From the IMG/VR virus record IMGVR_UViG_3300035212_002019, positions 18,063-82,062 of that record: 64,000 nt of DNA. The stretch is one strand, 5' to 3'. A program made the position numbers and the translations under genes. The notes under the pieces are model-generated. The model ran no database searches, was not told where the DNA came from, and worked only from the letters and a program-made list of their open reading frames with translations. Position 1 is the stretch's first letter; the number at the start of each line of letters is the position of its first letter. The DNA is from a virus. Below, piece after piece: positions 39,619 through 48,186 of the stretch.

Positions 39619-41742
39619 ATGAAACCAGTATTAATTATAGAAAATTCACAAAACTCTCTTATTAGAGAGAACAATGGTTCAACTAAGAAGGATTACATTC
39701 TAGGTGGTACGTTCACAGAGTTCGGTGTTAAAAACCGTAATGAAAGAATTTATACTGCTGATAAATTTCTTCCAGCTTTAAATGAATTAAATGAAAGAAT
39801 GAGCAGTTTAGGCGTTGTTTACGGTGAGTTTGATCACCCAGATGTTTTTGACACATCTCTTTCAAGAGCATCACACATTATCACAAAAGCTAATTATGTA
39901 AAAGAATCAAATTTAGTTAATGGTGAAATTAGATTACTAAACACTTATTGGGGTAAAGAAGCAAAGGCATTAGTTGATGACGGATGTCCTGTTTTCGTTT
40001 CTTCAAGAGCCGCTGGTATCACTGAATCAGATGGTACTGTTTCATTGAAAAAATTATTTACATATGATATCGTTGCTGATCCAGGTTTTGCTTCTGCTAA
40101 AATGTCGGTTAAGAATATCAACGAATCATTAGGATATAATGAAAACTCTAACTTTAGGATATATGAAATGTCCGATGAGTCCAAAATAAATCAACTATTT
40201 GATATGAACAAAAATGAATTTGTTACAAAGCAACAATTAACTGAATATTCTCAGTATTTAGTTAAAGAACTAGCTTCTACAAAGAAAGAAGTTAAAGGTG
40301 CTCTTACTAAAGGTAATTTATCTCCAAAGAAAATGGAGCAACTTTTAGAGTACTATGAAGAGTTAAATTCTACTAATTCTCAAGTTGTTAAATATTTAGA
40401 TTATTTGGCTGAAAAAGTTCAAATTATGGTTAATGAAAACAAGTCGTTAAAGGAAACTACTGACAAACTTATTAAACATAATGACTATTTAGCTGAAAAT
40501 TTAGAAAAAGCTGTTAACTACTCTGAATACTTAGCTGAAAACTTAGACAAAAATATTGAGTATTCTGAATACTTAGCTGAAAATCTTGATAAGAACATTT
40601 CTTATTCAGAATATATCGCTGAAAATCTTGATAAGAACATTTCTTATTCTGAATACTTAGCTGAAAACTTAGACAAAAATATTGAGTACTCTGAGTACTT
40701 AGCTGAAAATCTTGATAAGAATATTGCTTATTCAGAATATATCGCTGAAAACTTAGACAAAAATATTTCTTACGCAGAATATATTGCTGAGCACGTTGAT
40801 AATTCAATTGCTTATTCTGAATACTTAGCTGAACACGTTGAAGGTAACATCGCTTACTCTGAATACATTGCTGAACATTTAGATGATAATATTGCTTACT
40901 CTGAATACATTGCTGAAAATCTTGATAAATCAATTAACTACCAAGGTTTAATCGTTGAAAAATTAAATTCAAGAAAATTAAATGAATCAATGAGTGAAGA
41001 AGAAGAAGCTTTCCCATCATTACAAGCGGCAGGTTTTGAAAATACTCAAGAAGATGAGAATGAAGAAGAAGAAAATGAAGAAGAAGCATACAATGGTATT
41101 GCTTCAGCTCATGAAGAAGAAGCATATAATAAAGAAGAAGAAGATGAAGACTGTGGTCCATCTGCTACTGAAGAAGAAAATAATGATGAAGAAGCTCATG
41201 ATTACAAAGTAACTGGTAACAGTGATTCTGAATTATCTGAGTCAATCAACAAATTAATAGAAGAAGCTAAAAAACGTAAAGTTTCTGAATCAACTGACTT
41301 GAATTTCTTAAAATTCTTAAACAAGTCACAAGTAGATAGTTACTACGCTTTGTCTGATGAAGACCAAGAGGCTGTTAAATTTCACATAAACGAAAGAAAT
41401 TACTTCACATCTAAAGATGTGTTAAGCCTAATCGCAGAAGCGCTATCATCAAAGAATGAATCTCTTGAAGAAAGAGTAATCAGATTAATGCCTGAAAACA
41501 CTAAGGCTATCTGGAGTCAAATGAATGAATCTGCTAAAAAATCTATCTTATCACAAGCTAGACTTTACCCAGCTGAAGTTTTAATGACTGAATCACAAGT
41601 TGAGCATTTCTGGTTAACTAGAAAGCTTAAAACAAACGAGTCTGTAACTAAAAAGTTAGTAGCTCATGAAAGTTTAATACAAGAAGATAAACTTTCTGAT
41701 AATGACGTTACTGCGATTATGGAAAGATTCAAAAACATTTAA
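39619..41742 (+). CDS. 21: Prohead protease fused to a repeat-rich scaffold-like region (T4 gp21 + gp22-like)
   Basis: A 707-residue protein. Residues 1-170 are a gp21-type serine protease: Y-G-E-F-D-H-P (H73), V-F-V-S-S-R-A-A-G (S128/S129), F-T-Y-D-I-V-A-D-P-G-F (D150 region). Residues 200-286 are helical. Residues 287-440 contain eleven 14-residue repeats of YSEYLAENLDKNIE type, each with an L-A-E or I-A-E. An acidic region (455-520) and a helical C-terminal domain follow. T4 keeps gp21 and the gp22 scaffold separate. Here one polypeptide seems to join them. It precedes the capsid gene in the T4 order. Confidence 0.8.
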   Translation: MKPVLIIENSQNSLIRENNGSTKKDYILGGTFTEFGVKNRNERIYTADKFLPALNELNERMSSLGVVYGEFDHPDVFDTSLSRASHIITKANYVKESNLVNGEIRLLNTYWGKEAKALVDDGCPVFVSSRAAGITESDGTVSLKKLFTYDIVADPGFASAKMSVKNINESLGYNENSNFRIYEMSDESKINQLFDMNKNEFVTKQQLTEYSQYLVKELASTKKEVKGALTKGNLSPKKMEQLLEYYEELNSTNSQVVKYLDYLAEKVQIMVNENKSLKETTDKLIKHNDYLAENLEKAVNYSEYLAENLDKNIEYSEYLAENLDKNISYSEYIAENLDKNISYSEYLAENLDKNIEYSEYLAENLDKNIAYSEYIAENLDKNISYAEYIAEHVDNSIAYSEYLAEHVEGNIAYSEYIAEHLDDNIAYSEYIAENLDKSINYQGLIVEKLNSRKLNESMSEEEEAFPSLQAAGFENTQEDENEEEENEEEAYNGIASAHEEEAYNKEEEDEDCGPSATEEENNDEEAHDYKVTGNSDSELSESINKLIEEAKKRKVSESTDLNFLKFLNKSQVDSYYALSDEDQEAVKFHINERNYFTSKDVLSLIAEALSSKNESLEERVIRLMPENTKAIWSQMNESAKKSILSQARLYPAEVLMTESQVEHFWLTRKLKTNESVTKKLVAHESLIQEDKLSDNDVTAIMERFKNI
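40477..40938 (+). repeat. 42-bp coding repeat, 11 copies, in the protease-scaffold gene
   Basis: Eleven consecutive 14-codon units (consensus YSEYLAENLDKNIE) with wobble differences between copies, so selection is on the protein. A degenerate twelfth copy follows (YQGLIVEKLNS). Some neighbouring copies are nearly identical at DNA level, which indicates recent duplication. Confidence 0.9.
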
Positions 41743-43539: not shown

Positions 43540-43560
43540 TAGTAATATTGGAAATATTGA

Positions 43561-43587
43561 AAAAAGACCCTTTATGGGTCTTTTTTC
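43561..43587 (+). terminator. Terminator after capsid gene
   Basis: AAAAAGACCC and GGGTCTTTTT pair around TTTAT, followed by more T. Confidence 0.85.
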
Positions 43588-43605
43588 TTTTTAAACAATT
43601 TCTAA

Positions 43606-43619
43606 TTAATATATACAGT
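43606..43619 (+). promoter_or_regulatory. Late-type promoter abutting the start codon
   Basis: TTAATATATACAGT is followed directly by the ATG at 43620. Confidence 0.55.
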
Positions 43620-44324
43620 ATGAAATATTTACTAATTGAAAATAGAGGTGATGATTCTGAAGATCGTGAAGATAAAGATATCATTATTAAGTATTTTGAT
43701 GACTTAAATGATGTTTATTCATATATCTGTCATGAATTAATATATGAGGATTTAGATATAGAAGATTTTAACAATGATCCTTATAGTGGGGTAGAAGAAA
43801 GAATTGAAGAACATGGTTCTAGTTATTATATTTTTGAAGGTGAAAACGAGATAATGTCATTAAAAATAGGTAGTATAAAGGATGGTGATTGGAATAAATT
43901 CACTAATTTTTGTTTAGGTGGTATAAAAGAAAGTAGAATAATGAATTATAAATCATTTAATGAGTCTAAAAAAGATAAATTCCCTAATATTCAAAAATTA
44001 GAAATAGAAGGATTTGTTGTTTATGTTGGTAAAGATGCTAAATCTAATGACCATTTGACATTTAATGTTGCTGATAAAGAAGATATTTGGTTCCATGTTA
44101 AAGGTGTTCCTGGTAGTCACGTTGTTATTCGTGTAAGAGAAAATTTACCTACAGAAACTGTTATTAAATCTGCTGCTCAATTAGCTAAAAAGAATAGTAA
44201 AGGATCTAAAGAATCTAGTGTAACTGTTGTTTATTGTCAAAGAAGATTTGTAAAGAAAGAGTCTGGTATGAATGATGGTCAAGTTAAAGTGGATTATACA
44301 AATTCATATCAAATTGTAGTTTAA
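43620..44324 (+). CDS. NFACT-R (RqcH/Rqc2-type) domain protein
   Basis: A 234-residue protein; the start at 43620 is chosen because the longer frame (43548) covers the terminator and promoter. Residues about 122-234 match the NFACT-R domain of RqcH/Rqc2/FbpA: F-V-V-Y-V-G-K-D-A-K-S-N-D-H-L-T-F, D-I-W-F-H-V-K-G-V-P-G-S-H-V-V-I, A-A-Q-L-A-K-K-N-S-K. In RqcH this domain takes part in ribosome-associated quality control. The NFACT-N and coiled-coil parts are absent. Residues 1-107 are an acidic unknown domain. An internal in-frame ATG (43941) would give a product starting MNYKSFNESKKDKF, which itself resembles the shared head-targeting peptide. Confidence 0.75.
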   Translation: MKYLLIENRGDDSEDREDKDIIIKYFDDLNDVYSYICHELIYEDLDIEDFNNDPYSGVEERIEEHGSSYYIFEGENEIMSLKIGSIKDGDWNKFTNFCLGGIKESRIMNYKSFNESKKDKFPNIQKLEIEGFVVYVGKDAKSNDHLTFNVADKEDIWFHVKGVPGSHVVIRVRENLPTETVIKSAAQLAKKNSKGSKESSVTVVYCQRRFVKKESGMNDGQVKVDYTNSYQIVV

Positions 44325-45717: not shown

Positions 45718-46166
45718 TGAAACTTAAAAAATTTAATCAATTATTTGAACGTGAGGGTTTTGATGATATCGATGGATATGATTATGAAGATGATTACGAT
45801 TATTCAAGAGAAGATGAATATAAAGGTGATGATGATGATGATTCAGATGATGATATGTCACATCTTTGTTATCTTTTAAGATCCATGTTTAATAATAGTA
45901 ATGTAGATGTTAATGTTGAAAATAGTGGATTGGATTTATCTATTACAGCTCAATTTGCTAGAAGAGAATCACTTAGTGATATTGTTAAAGTATTTGAAAT
46001 TGTTAGAAAAATTAAAAAAGACGTTTTAGCTCAATATTCTTCTTCTTATGAAATATGGGAAACTAAAACAGGTACGCCTATGATTACATTTGAATTTATG
46101 TTAGAAGACGATGATGATAAAGATGGTGTAGTTGCTGATGATAAGAACGATGATTATCCTTGGTAA
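45717..46166 (+). CDS. Acidic protein with head-targeting-like N-terminus
   Basis: A 149-residue protein starting MKLKKFNQLFEREG, then an Asp/Tyr-rich stretch (residues 16-47) including a run of Asp. A small folded domain (about 48-130; S-H-L-C-Y-L-L-R-S-M-F and L-D-L-S-I-T-A-Q-F-A-R-R) follows, and a second Asp-rich tail ends in D-D-Y-P-W. No family is recognised. The TAATG overlap with the peptidase gene suggests joint production and perhaps joint packaging. Confidence 0.6.
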   Translation: MKLKKFNQLFEREGFDDIDGYDYEDDYDYSREDEYKGDDDDDSDDDMSHLCYLLRSMFNNSNVDVNVENSGLDLSITAQFARRESLSDIVKVFEIVRKIKKDVLAQYSSSYEIWETKTGTPMITFEFMLEDDDDKDGVVADDKNDDYPW

Positions 46167-46184
46167 TTTTTAAAATTTCTAAAC

Positions 46185-46218
46185 TTTTTGCTATTTTAGA
46201 ATATTATATATATATTTG
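46185..46218 (+). promoter_or_regulatory. Host-type promoter of the tmRNA gene
   Basis: TTTTTG (46185-46190), 20 bases, then TATATTTG (46211-46218), the Bacteroidetes consensus. Transcription would start about 20 bases before the mature 5' GGGG, leaving a short leader for RNase P. Confidence 0.7.
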
Positions 46219-46241
46219 TAGAATATAACACACACACACTT

Positions 46242-46621
46242 GGGGATGTTTTAGAATTGATTTGCGGAATGGTGGTGATTATGTCAGGTATCGGTTGGTT
46301 AAGTATCCGATTAATAAATTAAGTAACAAATTTGTAAACGGCAACGTTAATGAAGTAGCAAGCAATGAAGATTTAGTATTTGCGCTACAAAACAACATGA
46401 TCTTGGTAGAAGATCTAGCAACTGTCTAACAACAGTTACTATCAAAAAATTCTCCAACTTGTATCACACAAGAATAAAATGGTGAAACGGTTTTTTGTTA
46501 CTTGTTAGAGTTTCTCAAAAAAAGTAAATAGTTTGTAAGTTTAGAAAAATTTACTAAGCCTGTGAATGAATAATTATTAACAACTGAAAAAGACACGTTG
46601 GGCAGTACAACGTCATCTCCA
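46242..46621 (+). ncRNA. ssrA: tmRNA (ssrA) with an unusual 29-codon tag
   Basis: A 380-base gene with tmRNA architecture. The 5' GGGGATG (46242-46248) pairs with CATCTCC (46614-46620) as a 7-bp acceptor stem, followed by A46621. TTTTAGAATTGATT resembles the conserved 5' segment TTCTGGATTCGAC. ACTAAGCCTGTGA (46553-46565) matches the conserved ACTAAGCxTGTAG. A T-arm-like hairpin CGTTG/CAACG (46596-46612) has a 7-base loop, but its loop GGCAGTA is not the canonical TTCRANY. The resume codon is GGC at 46340 with T(-5) and A(-4) conserved. The tag runs 29 codons to a TAA at 46427-46429, which lies in the loop of hairpin AACTGT/ACAGTT (helix 5). Two H-type pseudoknots follow: CTTGT/ACAAG with TCAC-GTGA (46458-46485), and TTTTTTG/CAAAAAA with TTACT-AGTAA (46491-46527). 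CCA is not encoded. Confidence 0.85.
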
Positions 46622-46625
46622 CAAG

Positions 46626-46653
46626 AACAAAGACCAGTAATGGTCTTTTGTTA
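46626..46653 (+). terminator. Terminator of the tmRNA gene
   Basis: AACAAAGACC and GGTCTTTTGTT pair around AGTAAT, five bases after the tmRNA 3' end. Confidence 0.75.
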
Positions 46654-46696
46654 TTTTAAATAGGTAAACTTTATTCCTTTCGTTAATATAATAAGT

Positions 46697-47200
46697 ATGA
46701 TTGATAAATTTGAAGGTCGTTATAGATTCTTATCCAACTTCTACCCTTGTACAATAGAACATCAGGGTATTACTTACCCATCTGTTGAGAACTTTTATGT
46801 TGCTATGAAAGTTAATGACCAACAATTAATTAATGGTAAATATTACACACCAGGTGACTTTCGTGAAATGATTGCTAGAATTTCTAATCCTGCTGAAGTT
46901 AAGAAGATTGGTTCTAAAATAAAATTAAGAACTGGTTGGGATGAAAAGAAATTAGAAGTAATGAACTGGGCTGTTCGCCAAAAGTTCAAAGATGAAACTT
47001 TATCTGAAATGTTATTATCTACTGGTGACCAAGAGTTAATTGAAGGTAACTGGTGGAAAGATTATTTCTGGGGAGTTTGTAATGGTAAAGGTGATAATAA
47101 TCTTGGTAAAATTTTAATGACTGTTCGTGAAGAAATTTCTTTACAAAATCAAAAACCTTCAATCGAAGATATAATAAAAGACAAAAATAAATTAAATTAA
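46697..47200 (+). CDS. NADAR-family N-glycosidase (YbiA-like)
   Basis: A 167-residue protein that matches NADAR from end to end: F-L-S-N-F-Y-P-C-T-I-E-H-Q-G-I-T-Y-P-S-V-E-N, I-K-L-R-T-G-W-D-E-K-K-L-E-V-M, L-L-S-T-G-D-Q-E-L-I-E-G-N-W-W-K-D-Y-F-W-G-V and N-L-G-K-I-L-M-T-V-R-E-E. Known members cleave N-glycosidic bonds, in riboflavin-pathway intermediates (YbiA) or in ADP-ribosylated guanine. In a phage the latter would undo DNA ADP-ribosylation by DarT-type defences; this is inference. It is followed two bases later by the DNA methylase gene. Confidence 0.85.
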   Translation: MIDKFEGRYRFLSNFYPCTIEHQGITYPSVENFYVAMKVNDQQLINGKYYTPGDFREMIARISNPAEVKKIGSKIKLRTGWDEKKLEVMNWAVRQKFKDETLSEMLLSTGDQELIEGNWWKDYFWGVCNGKGDNNLGKILMTVREEISLQNQKPSIEDIIKDKNKLN

Positions 47201-47202
47201 TA

Positions 47203-48186
47203 ATGAGTGTAATTTCATATTTCGGAGGTAAGTCCTCAAATGTTTTCATTGAGTTTATTAACTCAAAAATTCCTAAAGATGGTAGCATAAAAACCTACAT
47301 AGAACCATTCTCTGGCTCTATGGGAACGTATATGGACGACCCAAACCTAAAGTTTGATGTAGTTGTTTATAATGATAAAAATCGTCACCAGACGAATCTA
47401 TACAAGTGTTGTGCTCAACCAGAAGAATTCGTTAAGTATTTAGAAGCTTTGAAAAGAACTTTACTTCATACCGATGAAACTGATCCATTGAAGAAGTGGG
47501 ATTTCTATAAAGAGATTTACAAAAGATATATTAAGAACGATTTCTTAGATAATATGAATTTTGAGATTGGTGATTTCAAAAAAGCGTCTATCTATGCTTT
47601 CTTAATTACATCAGCTCATAACTCGGTTTATCCTCGTGGTGCTGGTTTCAATGGTTATAAGAAAGATAAAGACCGTTTGAAGTTAGAAGTTCTTATTGAT
47701 AAATTGAAAAAGAACAAGTACACATCTAAATTGGCTACTATTACAGACTTCTATAACATTGATTTTGAAGAGTTAATCAATCAATATGATGCTGAAGATA
47801 CTTATTTGTATTTGGATCCTCCTTATCACAGACCTGATGAGAATGGCGATGATGATGCTAAGAGATTATCTTGGTATGGTGCTGACAAAGAAGGTATGTT
47901 TGGTCCGGCTTCACATAGAAGATTGTTAGATTTAATTAAGAAATCAAAATCTCGTTGGTCATTATCTTATTACTATTTTCCTTTATTAGAAGAATTGTTA
48001 CCAAGAGACCAATATATCTGGACTGAGAAAGAAGTATTTAGAAGTTCAGCTCAAGGTGGTAATAACTCTGAGGGTAAAGGTGAACAAGCTAAAGGTGTAG
48101 AGTTATTAATTTTAAATTACGATCCAGTTACTGGTAAAAAATTAAACATTCAAGATGAACTATCCGCTACCGAGACAGAGATATAA
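47203..48186 (+). CDS. dam: DNA adenine N6-methyltransferase (Dam, D12 class)
   Basis: A 327-residue protein. Motif I region is Y-F-G-G-K-S (6-11) and Y-I-E-P-F-S-G-S-M-G (about 32-41). The Y-N-D-K-N motif comes next, and the catalytic motif IV is Y-L-Y-L-D-P-P-Y (about 200-207). This is the D12-class order of Dam and phage T4 Dam. It transfers methyl from SAM to adenine, protecting phage DNA from restriction or marking it. The C-terminus overlaps the next gene by 32 bases in another frame. Confidence 0.88.
   Translation: MSVISYFGGKSSNVFIEFINSKIPKDGSIKTYIEPFSGSMGTYMDDPNLKFDVVVYNDKNRHQTNLYKCCAQPEEFVKYLEALKRTLLHTDETDPLKKWDFYKEIYKRYIKNDFLDNMNFEIGDFKKASIYAFLITSAHNSVYPRGAGFNGYKKDKDRLKLEVLIDKLKKNKYTSKLATITDFYNIDFEELINQYDAEDTYLYLDPPYHRPDENGDDDAKRLSWYGADKEGMFGPASHRRLLDLIKKSKSRWSLSYYYFPLLEELLPRDQYIWTEKEVFRSSAQGGNNSEGKGEQAKGVELLILNYDPVTGKKLNIQDELSATETEI

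Follow-up and report, generated by a model that had tools for sequence, protein, structure and literature searches.

The window, i.e., the whole stretch of DNA that was analysed, comprises 64 kb of a virus record of 82,062 bases. Twenty of its open reading frames were scanned for domains, and genes for a terminase, a portal protein, a head maturation protease and a Gp23-type capsid protein were identified. A blastn search with the stretch retrieved two very large genomes, LR745206 (634,780 bases, 82% over 91%) and LR756502 (642,428 bases, 73.6% over 91%). Al-Shayeb et al. (PMC7162821) assign genomes larger than 634 kb to the Mahaphages, a clade for which they predict Bacteroidetes as hosts. 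The window is a fragment of such a Mahaphage-type huge phage, and it contains a true, divergent phage tmRNA gene. The gene and its surroundings are organized as follows:

43548-44324, + strand: NFACT-R domain protein, directly behind the capsid gene and two genes ahead of the tmRNA (7/7 loci)
46187-46218, + strand: promoter match TTTG-N20-TATATTTG (motif search of the window)
46242-46621, + strand: mature tmRNA from the first acceptor base through A73, the discriminator (22-sequence alignment and 40 distinct mature homologues; predicted ends)
46242-46248, + strand: acceptor 5' strand GGGGATG, including G3 of G3-U70 (alignment, covariation)
46253-46254, + strand: D-loop A18 G19, canonically G18 G19 (AG in 22/22 and 40/40 distinct members)
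46266-46288, + strand: 5' strands of helix P2, pairing with 46559-46585 (covariation helices 2-4)
46290-46327, + strand: pseudoknot PK1, 46290-46294/46307-46311 and 46298-46301/46324-46327 (covariation helices 5 and 6)
46340-46429, + strand: tag frame GNVNEVASNEDLVFALQNNMILVEDLATV and stop codon TAA (open in 22/22 and 40/40 distinct members)
46416-46441, + strand: P5 hairpin, stop codon within the loop (folded sequence by sequence)
46458-46485, + strand: pseudoknot PK2, 46458-46462/46468-46472 and 46464-46467/46482-46485 (covariation helices 7 and 8)
46498-46527, + strand: hairpin of the PK3 region, 46498-46503/46522-46527 (covariation helix 9; weak, one double change)
46537-46552, + strand: hairpin of the PK4 region (covariation helix 10; double changes at three pairs)
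46553-46563, + strand: conserved ACTAAGCCTGT box (sequence; the extended box finds many ARAGORN-called phage tmRNAs)
46595-46613, + strand: T arm with a 6-bp stem and the 7-nt loop GGCAGTA, i.e., G54 G55 C56 A57 G58 T59 A60 (covariation helix 11)
46614-46621, + strand: 3' strand of the acceptor, CATCTCC, followed by discriminator A73 (alignment, covariation)
46629-46648, + strand: intrinsic terminator (terminator search)
46697-48186, + strand: NADAR protein, then D12-class DNA methyltransferase, adjoining the tmRNA (domain scan)

This anatomy agrees with the initial annotation, which had proposed a phage-encoded tmRNA with a 7-bp acceptor stem (46242-46248/46614-46620, seven pairs, one of them G3-U70), an ACTAAGC-type box (46553-46563), a resume codon GGC with T(-5)/A(-4) (found at 46340), a tag of 29 codons (46340-46426, stop codon at 46427-46429), a stop codon inside a hairpin loop as in helix 5, two H-type pseudoknots (PK1 and PK2, both with covariation), a terminator (46629-46648), and the non-consensus T-loop GGCAGTA (46601-46607). 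The CCA end is not encoded by the gene. The proposed host-type promoter applies to the window but does not extend to the family as a whole. The motif TTTG-N20-TATATTTG, which we take to be a Bacteroidetes-type promoter, matches seven times in the window versus 2.59 expected matches, and at least seven were present in 3 of 100 shuffled sequences. Among the 39 distinct members with enough upstream DNA, both boxes are present in 22 and the TAnnTTTG box in 26; a deviating AT-rich core is seen in the remaining 13. A terminator-like hairpin follows the tmRNA in 38 of 39 distinct members (by our own criterion, without a shuffle control).

The gene order upstream of the tmRNA (Gp23 capsid protein, NFACT-R protein, a 451-aa ORF, a 149-aa ORF) is identical in all seven loci compared, five of which had originally been found via the 149-aa protein. 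The NADAR and methyltransferase genes follow downstream in five of the seven loci, and the other two end too soon. NFACT-R is a domain of RqcH, and its gene may connect the locus with ribosome quality control in a second way.

Standard gene finders miss this tmRNA gene. ARAGORN called no tmRNA gene in the window, no Rfam family matched within the window at the gathering threshold, and the tmRNA model RF00023 (gathering threshold 47 bits) had no match across the 82,062-base record even at E values up to 10. Fourteen Rfam matches below cut-off on 46150-46720 (E up to 10) were taken as chance, among them a 7.5-bit match of alpha_tmRNA upstream of the gene. ARAGORN also made no call in the 14 family loci on which it was run, nor in L168. 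The initial annotation had suggested the Rfam tmRNA model and ARAGORN as a check, and had regarded the lack of a match as an argument against a tmRNA; precisely this outcome was obtained. Canonical phage tmRNAs related to the family are detected by both programs, and the variant T-loop and elbow are presumably the cause of the misses.

Relatives were collected via the neighbouring protein (13 loci), an ACTAAGC pattern (figures hold among the matches listed), a pattern for the core of the tag (29 stretches), and a T-arm pattern in viral contigs (57 stretches). Three of the 57 (L226, L229, L251) have fewer than five of the six stem pairs and are chance matches, and the same applies to all 11 T-arm matches in a cellular genome collection, none of which has at least five of six pairs. 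From 42 strong profile matches plus the window, 40 sequences could be cut at full length (not L163, L176 and L159), which yielded the first set of 22 distinct mature RNAs. The wider set was drawn from the window plus 65 loci (66 sources in total, some contigs contributing several loci) and comprises 40 distinct mature RNAs. A DNA search of seven huge-phage records retrieved, among the matches listed, only short weak matches beyond the family loci of LR745206 and G005. The family profile is also matched by canonical phage tmRNAs (for L113 the match spans positions 70-462), in a set chosen by a 17-base pattern inside this profile.

A structure of 11 helices and 59 pairs including two pseudoknots was written on the alignment of the 22 distinct homologues, partly from an RNAalifold prediction. 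Standard pairs make up 96.8% of its 1291 cells. Double changes occur at 18 pairs, versus 7.7 (sd 1.3) after shuffling and 2-6 when the structure was slid along the alignment; the slid control favours a structure drawn from the same sequences, and relatedness is not accounted for in the shuffled one. The alignment has a covariation score of 0.211 versus 0.125 for shuffled alignments. At least one pair with a double change is present in 10 of the 11 helices, including PK1, PK2, the T arm and P2; helix 3, a part of P2, has none among the 22 sequences. For example, PK1 pair 61/87 is seen as CG, UA, UG and AU, four of the six stem pairs of the T arm show double changes, and in L134 the acceptor pair A5-U68 is replaced by G5-C68. 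The invariance of the acceptor is partly due to construction, because the extraction patterns fix a part of it, and two sequences misaligned there (L005, L151) count against the structure. Covariation among related phages was another check named in the initial annotation, and its result is strongly positive.

The acceptor retains G3-U70 and the discriminator A73, the identity elements for alanine, and PK1 is located upstream of the resume codon, as is characteristic for tmRNAs. The third hallmark, a stop codon in the P5 loop, is predicted in 21 of the 22 distinct members, L134 being the exception. It is weaker in the wider set: under a strict rule, which asks for two or more unpaired stop bases within the hairpin, 28 of the 40 members pass; in 10, part of the stop codon falls into the stem, and no such hairpin is seen in L232 and L238.

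The corner of tRNAs is held together by U54-A58, G18-U55 and G19-C56 (PMC7912444), and contact between the D- and T-loops of tmRNA has been described as a requirement for SmpB binding (PMC3968760). In the family, A18 and G55 are present in 22 of 22 members that had been found without fixing the T-loop, and in all 40 members of the wider set, for which the patterns fixed G55 and left position 18 as A or G. Positions 54/58 are G/G in 38 and U/A in 2 of the 40 distinct members, whereas G19, C56 and R57 are retained throughout. The resulting T-loops are GGCAGTA, TGCAATA and similar ones, combined with a D-loop AG, and thus the family has neither the consensus T-loop TTCRANY nor the D-loop GG. We did not count the consensus elbow as a defining feature of a tmRNA, because the contact partners have changed together. 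An additional A...U between T stem and acceptor is invariant in the 22 members and forms a putative pair, so that 13 stacked pairs are possible versus 12 in canonical tmRNA. U54 and U55 are the usual sites of m5U and pseudouridine, respectively. The loss of U55 in 40 of 40 members and of U54 in 38 of 40 removes both modification sites.

The comparison of positions 18 and 55 was extended to 70 distinct other phage tmRNAs that could be parsed after retrieval with the ACTAAGC pattern (among the matches listed; 14 of 116 occurrences were left unparsed). Those with U55 have a D-loop GG, among the matches listed, and 13 of them were re-read by eye. Fourteen tmRNAs had appeared to combine A18 with T55; by eye, 13 of these have an A that precedes the GG, and L132 is ambiguous. 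Outside the family G55 was found only in L064 and L130 among the matches listed, in both cases together with A18. Their tags, read by eye, are GEQISTFTFDDAMAFVGEYDYALAA and ANDNDNISFAQAA, and tags and sequences look unrelated to those of the family. Therefore, the A18/G55 exchange would probably have arisen independently more than once. Judged from these co-changes, the T-loop is rebuilt and not decayed. The initial annotation had suspected that it might alter the handling by SmpB or EF-Tu, but a simple impairment is probably not the case, as the D-loop has changed as well and A18 is present wherever U55 has become G55. An additional observation concerns the tmRNA of a 636-kb phage (L197, LR756504). 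Its T-loop is odd, with an 8-nt or a 6-nt reading, and no D-loop GG could be seen by eye; it is possibly a third solution of the elbow.

The tag of the window has 29 codons, as does the tag of every distinct member of the first set (22 of 22). In the 40-sequence set 35 tags have 29 codons, four have 27 and one has 28; three starts were read individually (L223 with 28 codons, 24 by script; L231 and L233 with 29, 34 by the longest-start rule). All 40 distinct members have A or V as the final tag residue and none ends with AA, the proteolysis tag ending (L)AA being absent. Hence, the long tag without LAA that had been noted at the outset is a family trait. Broken tag frames in relatives had been named as an argument against a functional tag, and not a single one was found. 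In contrast to the open tag frame, the other two frames of 17 distinct tags contain 3-7 (+1) and 1-3 (+2) stop codons. Frame retention is clear. Selection at the protein level is only suggested: pN/pS is 0.62 for 17 distinct tags, a value as low as this being reached in 51 of 300 column shuffles, and 0.64 for 25 distinct 29-codon tags (27 of 300 shuffles), with 0.76 and 0.77 in the other frames.

It has been reported that phage DS6A encodes a tmRNA that consists only of the tRNA-like domain (PMC4131195, PMC11915505). This precedent and the weak protein-level selection could be taken to indicate that the RNA of the huge phages binds SmpB, AlaRS or stalled ribosomes without tagging, and thereby inhibits or titrates trans-translation of the host. 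We regard such a decoy as improbable: the family RNA shares the phage-encoded tRNA-like domain with DS6A, but it has a full mRNA-like domain, which the DS6A RNA lacks, with an open tag frame in all 40 members, PK1, and a stop hairpin in most of them. In addition, the large contigs of the clade bring their own SmpB (see below), which would be superfluous for a decoy.

The canonical phage tmRNA L113 has a tag of 31 codons, GKTINSEDMMSIPTSITSRVFEAETELALAA, read by eye, which starts with GKT.N.ED as in the family and suggests that the LAA end may have been lost within the family clade. The loss of this end, together with the invisibility to standard models, would also be expected for a relic, i.e., a canonical phage tmRNA that is decaying toward loss. 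However, compensatory changes in 10 of 11 helices, the paired change at 18/55, the complete absence of broken frames among 40 distinct members and the terminator in 38 of 39 make a relic hardly credible. A rescue function of the family tmRNA is very likely.

SmpB (PF01668) is encoded by all five contigs of the clade with at least 385 kb, namely LR745206, LR756502, G001 (476 kb), G005 (385 kb) and G006 (436 kb), and therefore the partner protein of a tmRNA is present at the gene level. It was found in none of the six shorter clade contigs searched, fragments of 82-242 kb that include the window's 82-kb record. The SmpB of G001 aligns with solved SmpB structures almost from end to end, including the tail. 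RF00023 yields nothing above its cut-off in LR745206, LR756502, G001 or G005, so the family RNA is the only tmRNA found in them. We infer that the window's phage itself also encodes SmpB. The proposal of a phage-encoded tmRNA is thus backed by homologues, covariation, frame retention and the SmpB gene in the largest relatives.

Genes for Clp proteins were also found. Among four clade contigs of at least 385 kb that were searched, all four encode a Clp ATPase and three encode ClpP. ClpP (PF00574) is present with two copies in LR745206, three in LR756502, one in G001 and three in LR756504, while the PF00574 search revealed none in G005 or LR756501; LR756501 and LR756504 lie outside the variant clade. 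ClpP does not track the tag end, because G005 lacks it and LR756504, with the tag end AVAA, has it. One ClpP of LR756502 (L214) passes the NCBI ClpP equivalog cut-off and the others score lower. The strong ClpP genes are unlikely to encode prohead proteases, in view of L214 and of a head maturation protease that the window's phage encodes separately (39619-41742); the short copy of LR756502 (L216) is ambiguous in this respect. An ATPase with a ClpB_D2-small domain is present in all six huge-phage records searched. The ATPases of LR745206, LR756502 and G001 (L218, L219, L220) have two AAA modules, a UVR motif and a GVGF loop, and no Clp_N was among the 25 families listed for them; by inference from these motifs the three would be ClpC-like. 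Four of six huge-phage records also encode a factor-type GTPase of 665-726 aa, which by its size is EF-G-like and not EF-Tu.

Taken together, the locus can with considerable confidence be explained as a one-piece tmRNA of a Mahaphage-type huge phage that would serve trans-translation with a phage SmpB, possibly also with a phage ClpP. The explanation builds on homology, conserved structure, alanine identity elements, the open tag frame and the relatives' genes for SmpB, ClpP and Clp ATPase, from which we predict transcription, charging, the SmpB partnership, tagging and the acting protease. The tmRNA would be transcribed in the infected cell, the leader would be removed and CCA added, and the RNA would be charged with alanine via G3-U70/A73. 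The phage's own SmpB would bind to the elbow held by A18/G55, G19-C56 and mostly G54/G58, and the charged tmRNA would enter a stalled ribosome. A tag of about 29 residues would be translated up to the stop codon in the P5 hairpin, and the tagged product would be handed over to a Clp protease, possibly phage ClpP with a ClpC-like ATPase.

The initial annotation had considered that products tagged without LAA may escape ClpXP. This found no support, as A and V, the terminal residues of the tags, are both small, and ClpXP has been reported to still degrade the AAV variant of ssrA, an artificial tag, in Escherichia coli, albeit more slowly (PMC9382460). A more specialized version would be that only phage ClpC-like/ClpP proteins recognize the tag and that host ClpXP is left aside. 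The presence of ClpP in LR745206, LR756502, G001 and LR756504, Clp ATPases in six of six records, and the motifs of the three ATPases that were read would be in line with such a private route, and a precedent is found in Mesoplasma florum, where Lon reads the organism's own long tag (PMC9382460). However, the Clp genes are linked neither to the tmRNA nor to the tag end, LR756504 has ClpP without the elbow variant and G005 with the variant shows none, and hence the route seems rather unlikely. Equally doubtful is a completely orthogonal pathway, in which the elbow (A18/G55, G54/G58 and the extra stacked pair) would be read by the phage SmpB and not by that of the host, and the tag of 27-29 residues would be directed to phage ClpP and the ClpC-like ATPase without N domain.

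The preferred explanation, a tmRNA of the phage for trans-translation, can be compared with known systems. The family shares with canonical tmRNA (ssrA, RF00023) the acceptor with G3-U70/A73, the T arm, P2, PK1, PK2, the ACTAAGC box, the resume codon with T(-5)/A(-4), the stop codon in the P5 hairpin and the SmpB gene in large relatives. It differs by A18/G55, mostly G54/G58, the tag of 27-29 codons ending with A or V, and its invisibility to RF00023 and ARAGORN. Long-tag phage tmRNAs such as L063 (24 codons) and L113 are similar in tag length, the ACTAAGC.TGTGAATGA box and the 3' region, but TTCRA T-loops are present in 86 of 95 distinct box-bearing stretches (among the matches listed), with a D-loop GG where readable. 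The ARAGORN-listed phage tags mostly end with AA, unlike those of the family; exceptions exist, such as L114, an ARAGORN-called tmRNA with the long tag ANAYNTEDMMSIPTSITRSAVVEEIELMELV without AA end. The tmRNAs of Lak phages and other Mahaphages are likewise found in huge-phage records that also hold SmpB, but the RF00023 cut-off is reached by those of Lak-A2, Lak-C1, Lak-B5 and the 636-kb phage. The tmRNA of Mesoplasma florum also has a long non-LAA tag, but this ends with NYAFA, is read by Lon, and is bacterial (PMC9382460).

Phage tmRNAs, including intron-bearing ones, have been described previously (PMC4131195, PMC9004378, PMC11915505), with 402 phages reported to contain tmRNA genes (PMC9004378). 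Al-Shayeb et al. (PMC7162821) assigned tmRNAs via ARAGORN and mention tmRNA and SmpB of huge phages in general terms; the words Clp, protease and T-loop are absent from the main text of that article. In the open-access literature, no title among the matches listed concerns the A18/G55 elbow or these hidden tmRNA genes.

The elbow contacts 18-55 and 54-58 are regarded as nearly invariant, and the family indicates that a natural tRNA-like molecule can replace them as coupled sets, which apparently happened more than once. For the phage SmpB genes the family RNA is a putative partner that is invisible to an ARAGORN-based survey, and searches with a consensus T-loop undercount phage tmRNAs. The family could also supply an orthogonal tmRNA/SmpB pair of natural origin, and the role of long phage tags becomes testable.

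Further peculiarities were observed in huge phages. The tmRNA of a 735-kb phage (L193, LR756501) scores below the RF00023 cut-off, and its T-loop is the site of a group I intron; the tag, read by eye, is GDYKMNAEDMMSIPTSLTGKVATESFVEDLVLA, with 33 codons and no AA end. A group I intron is likewise present in L027, a short distance downstream of the tmRNA box. Fifteen of 129 ARAGORN-called tRNAs from fetched stretches of G001, LR745206, LR756502 and LR756501 (L198-L205, L181) have the T-loop ATCGTNA, i.e., A54/U58 replacing U54/A58; ARAGORN may miss further variants. None of 147 tRNAs in 11 other phage loci has this loop. In some cases, such as tRNA Phe (gaa) of G001 and LR745206, copies with the variant and with the canonical T-loop are present in parallel.
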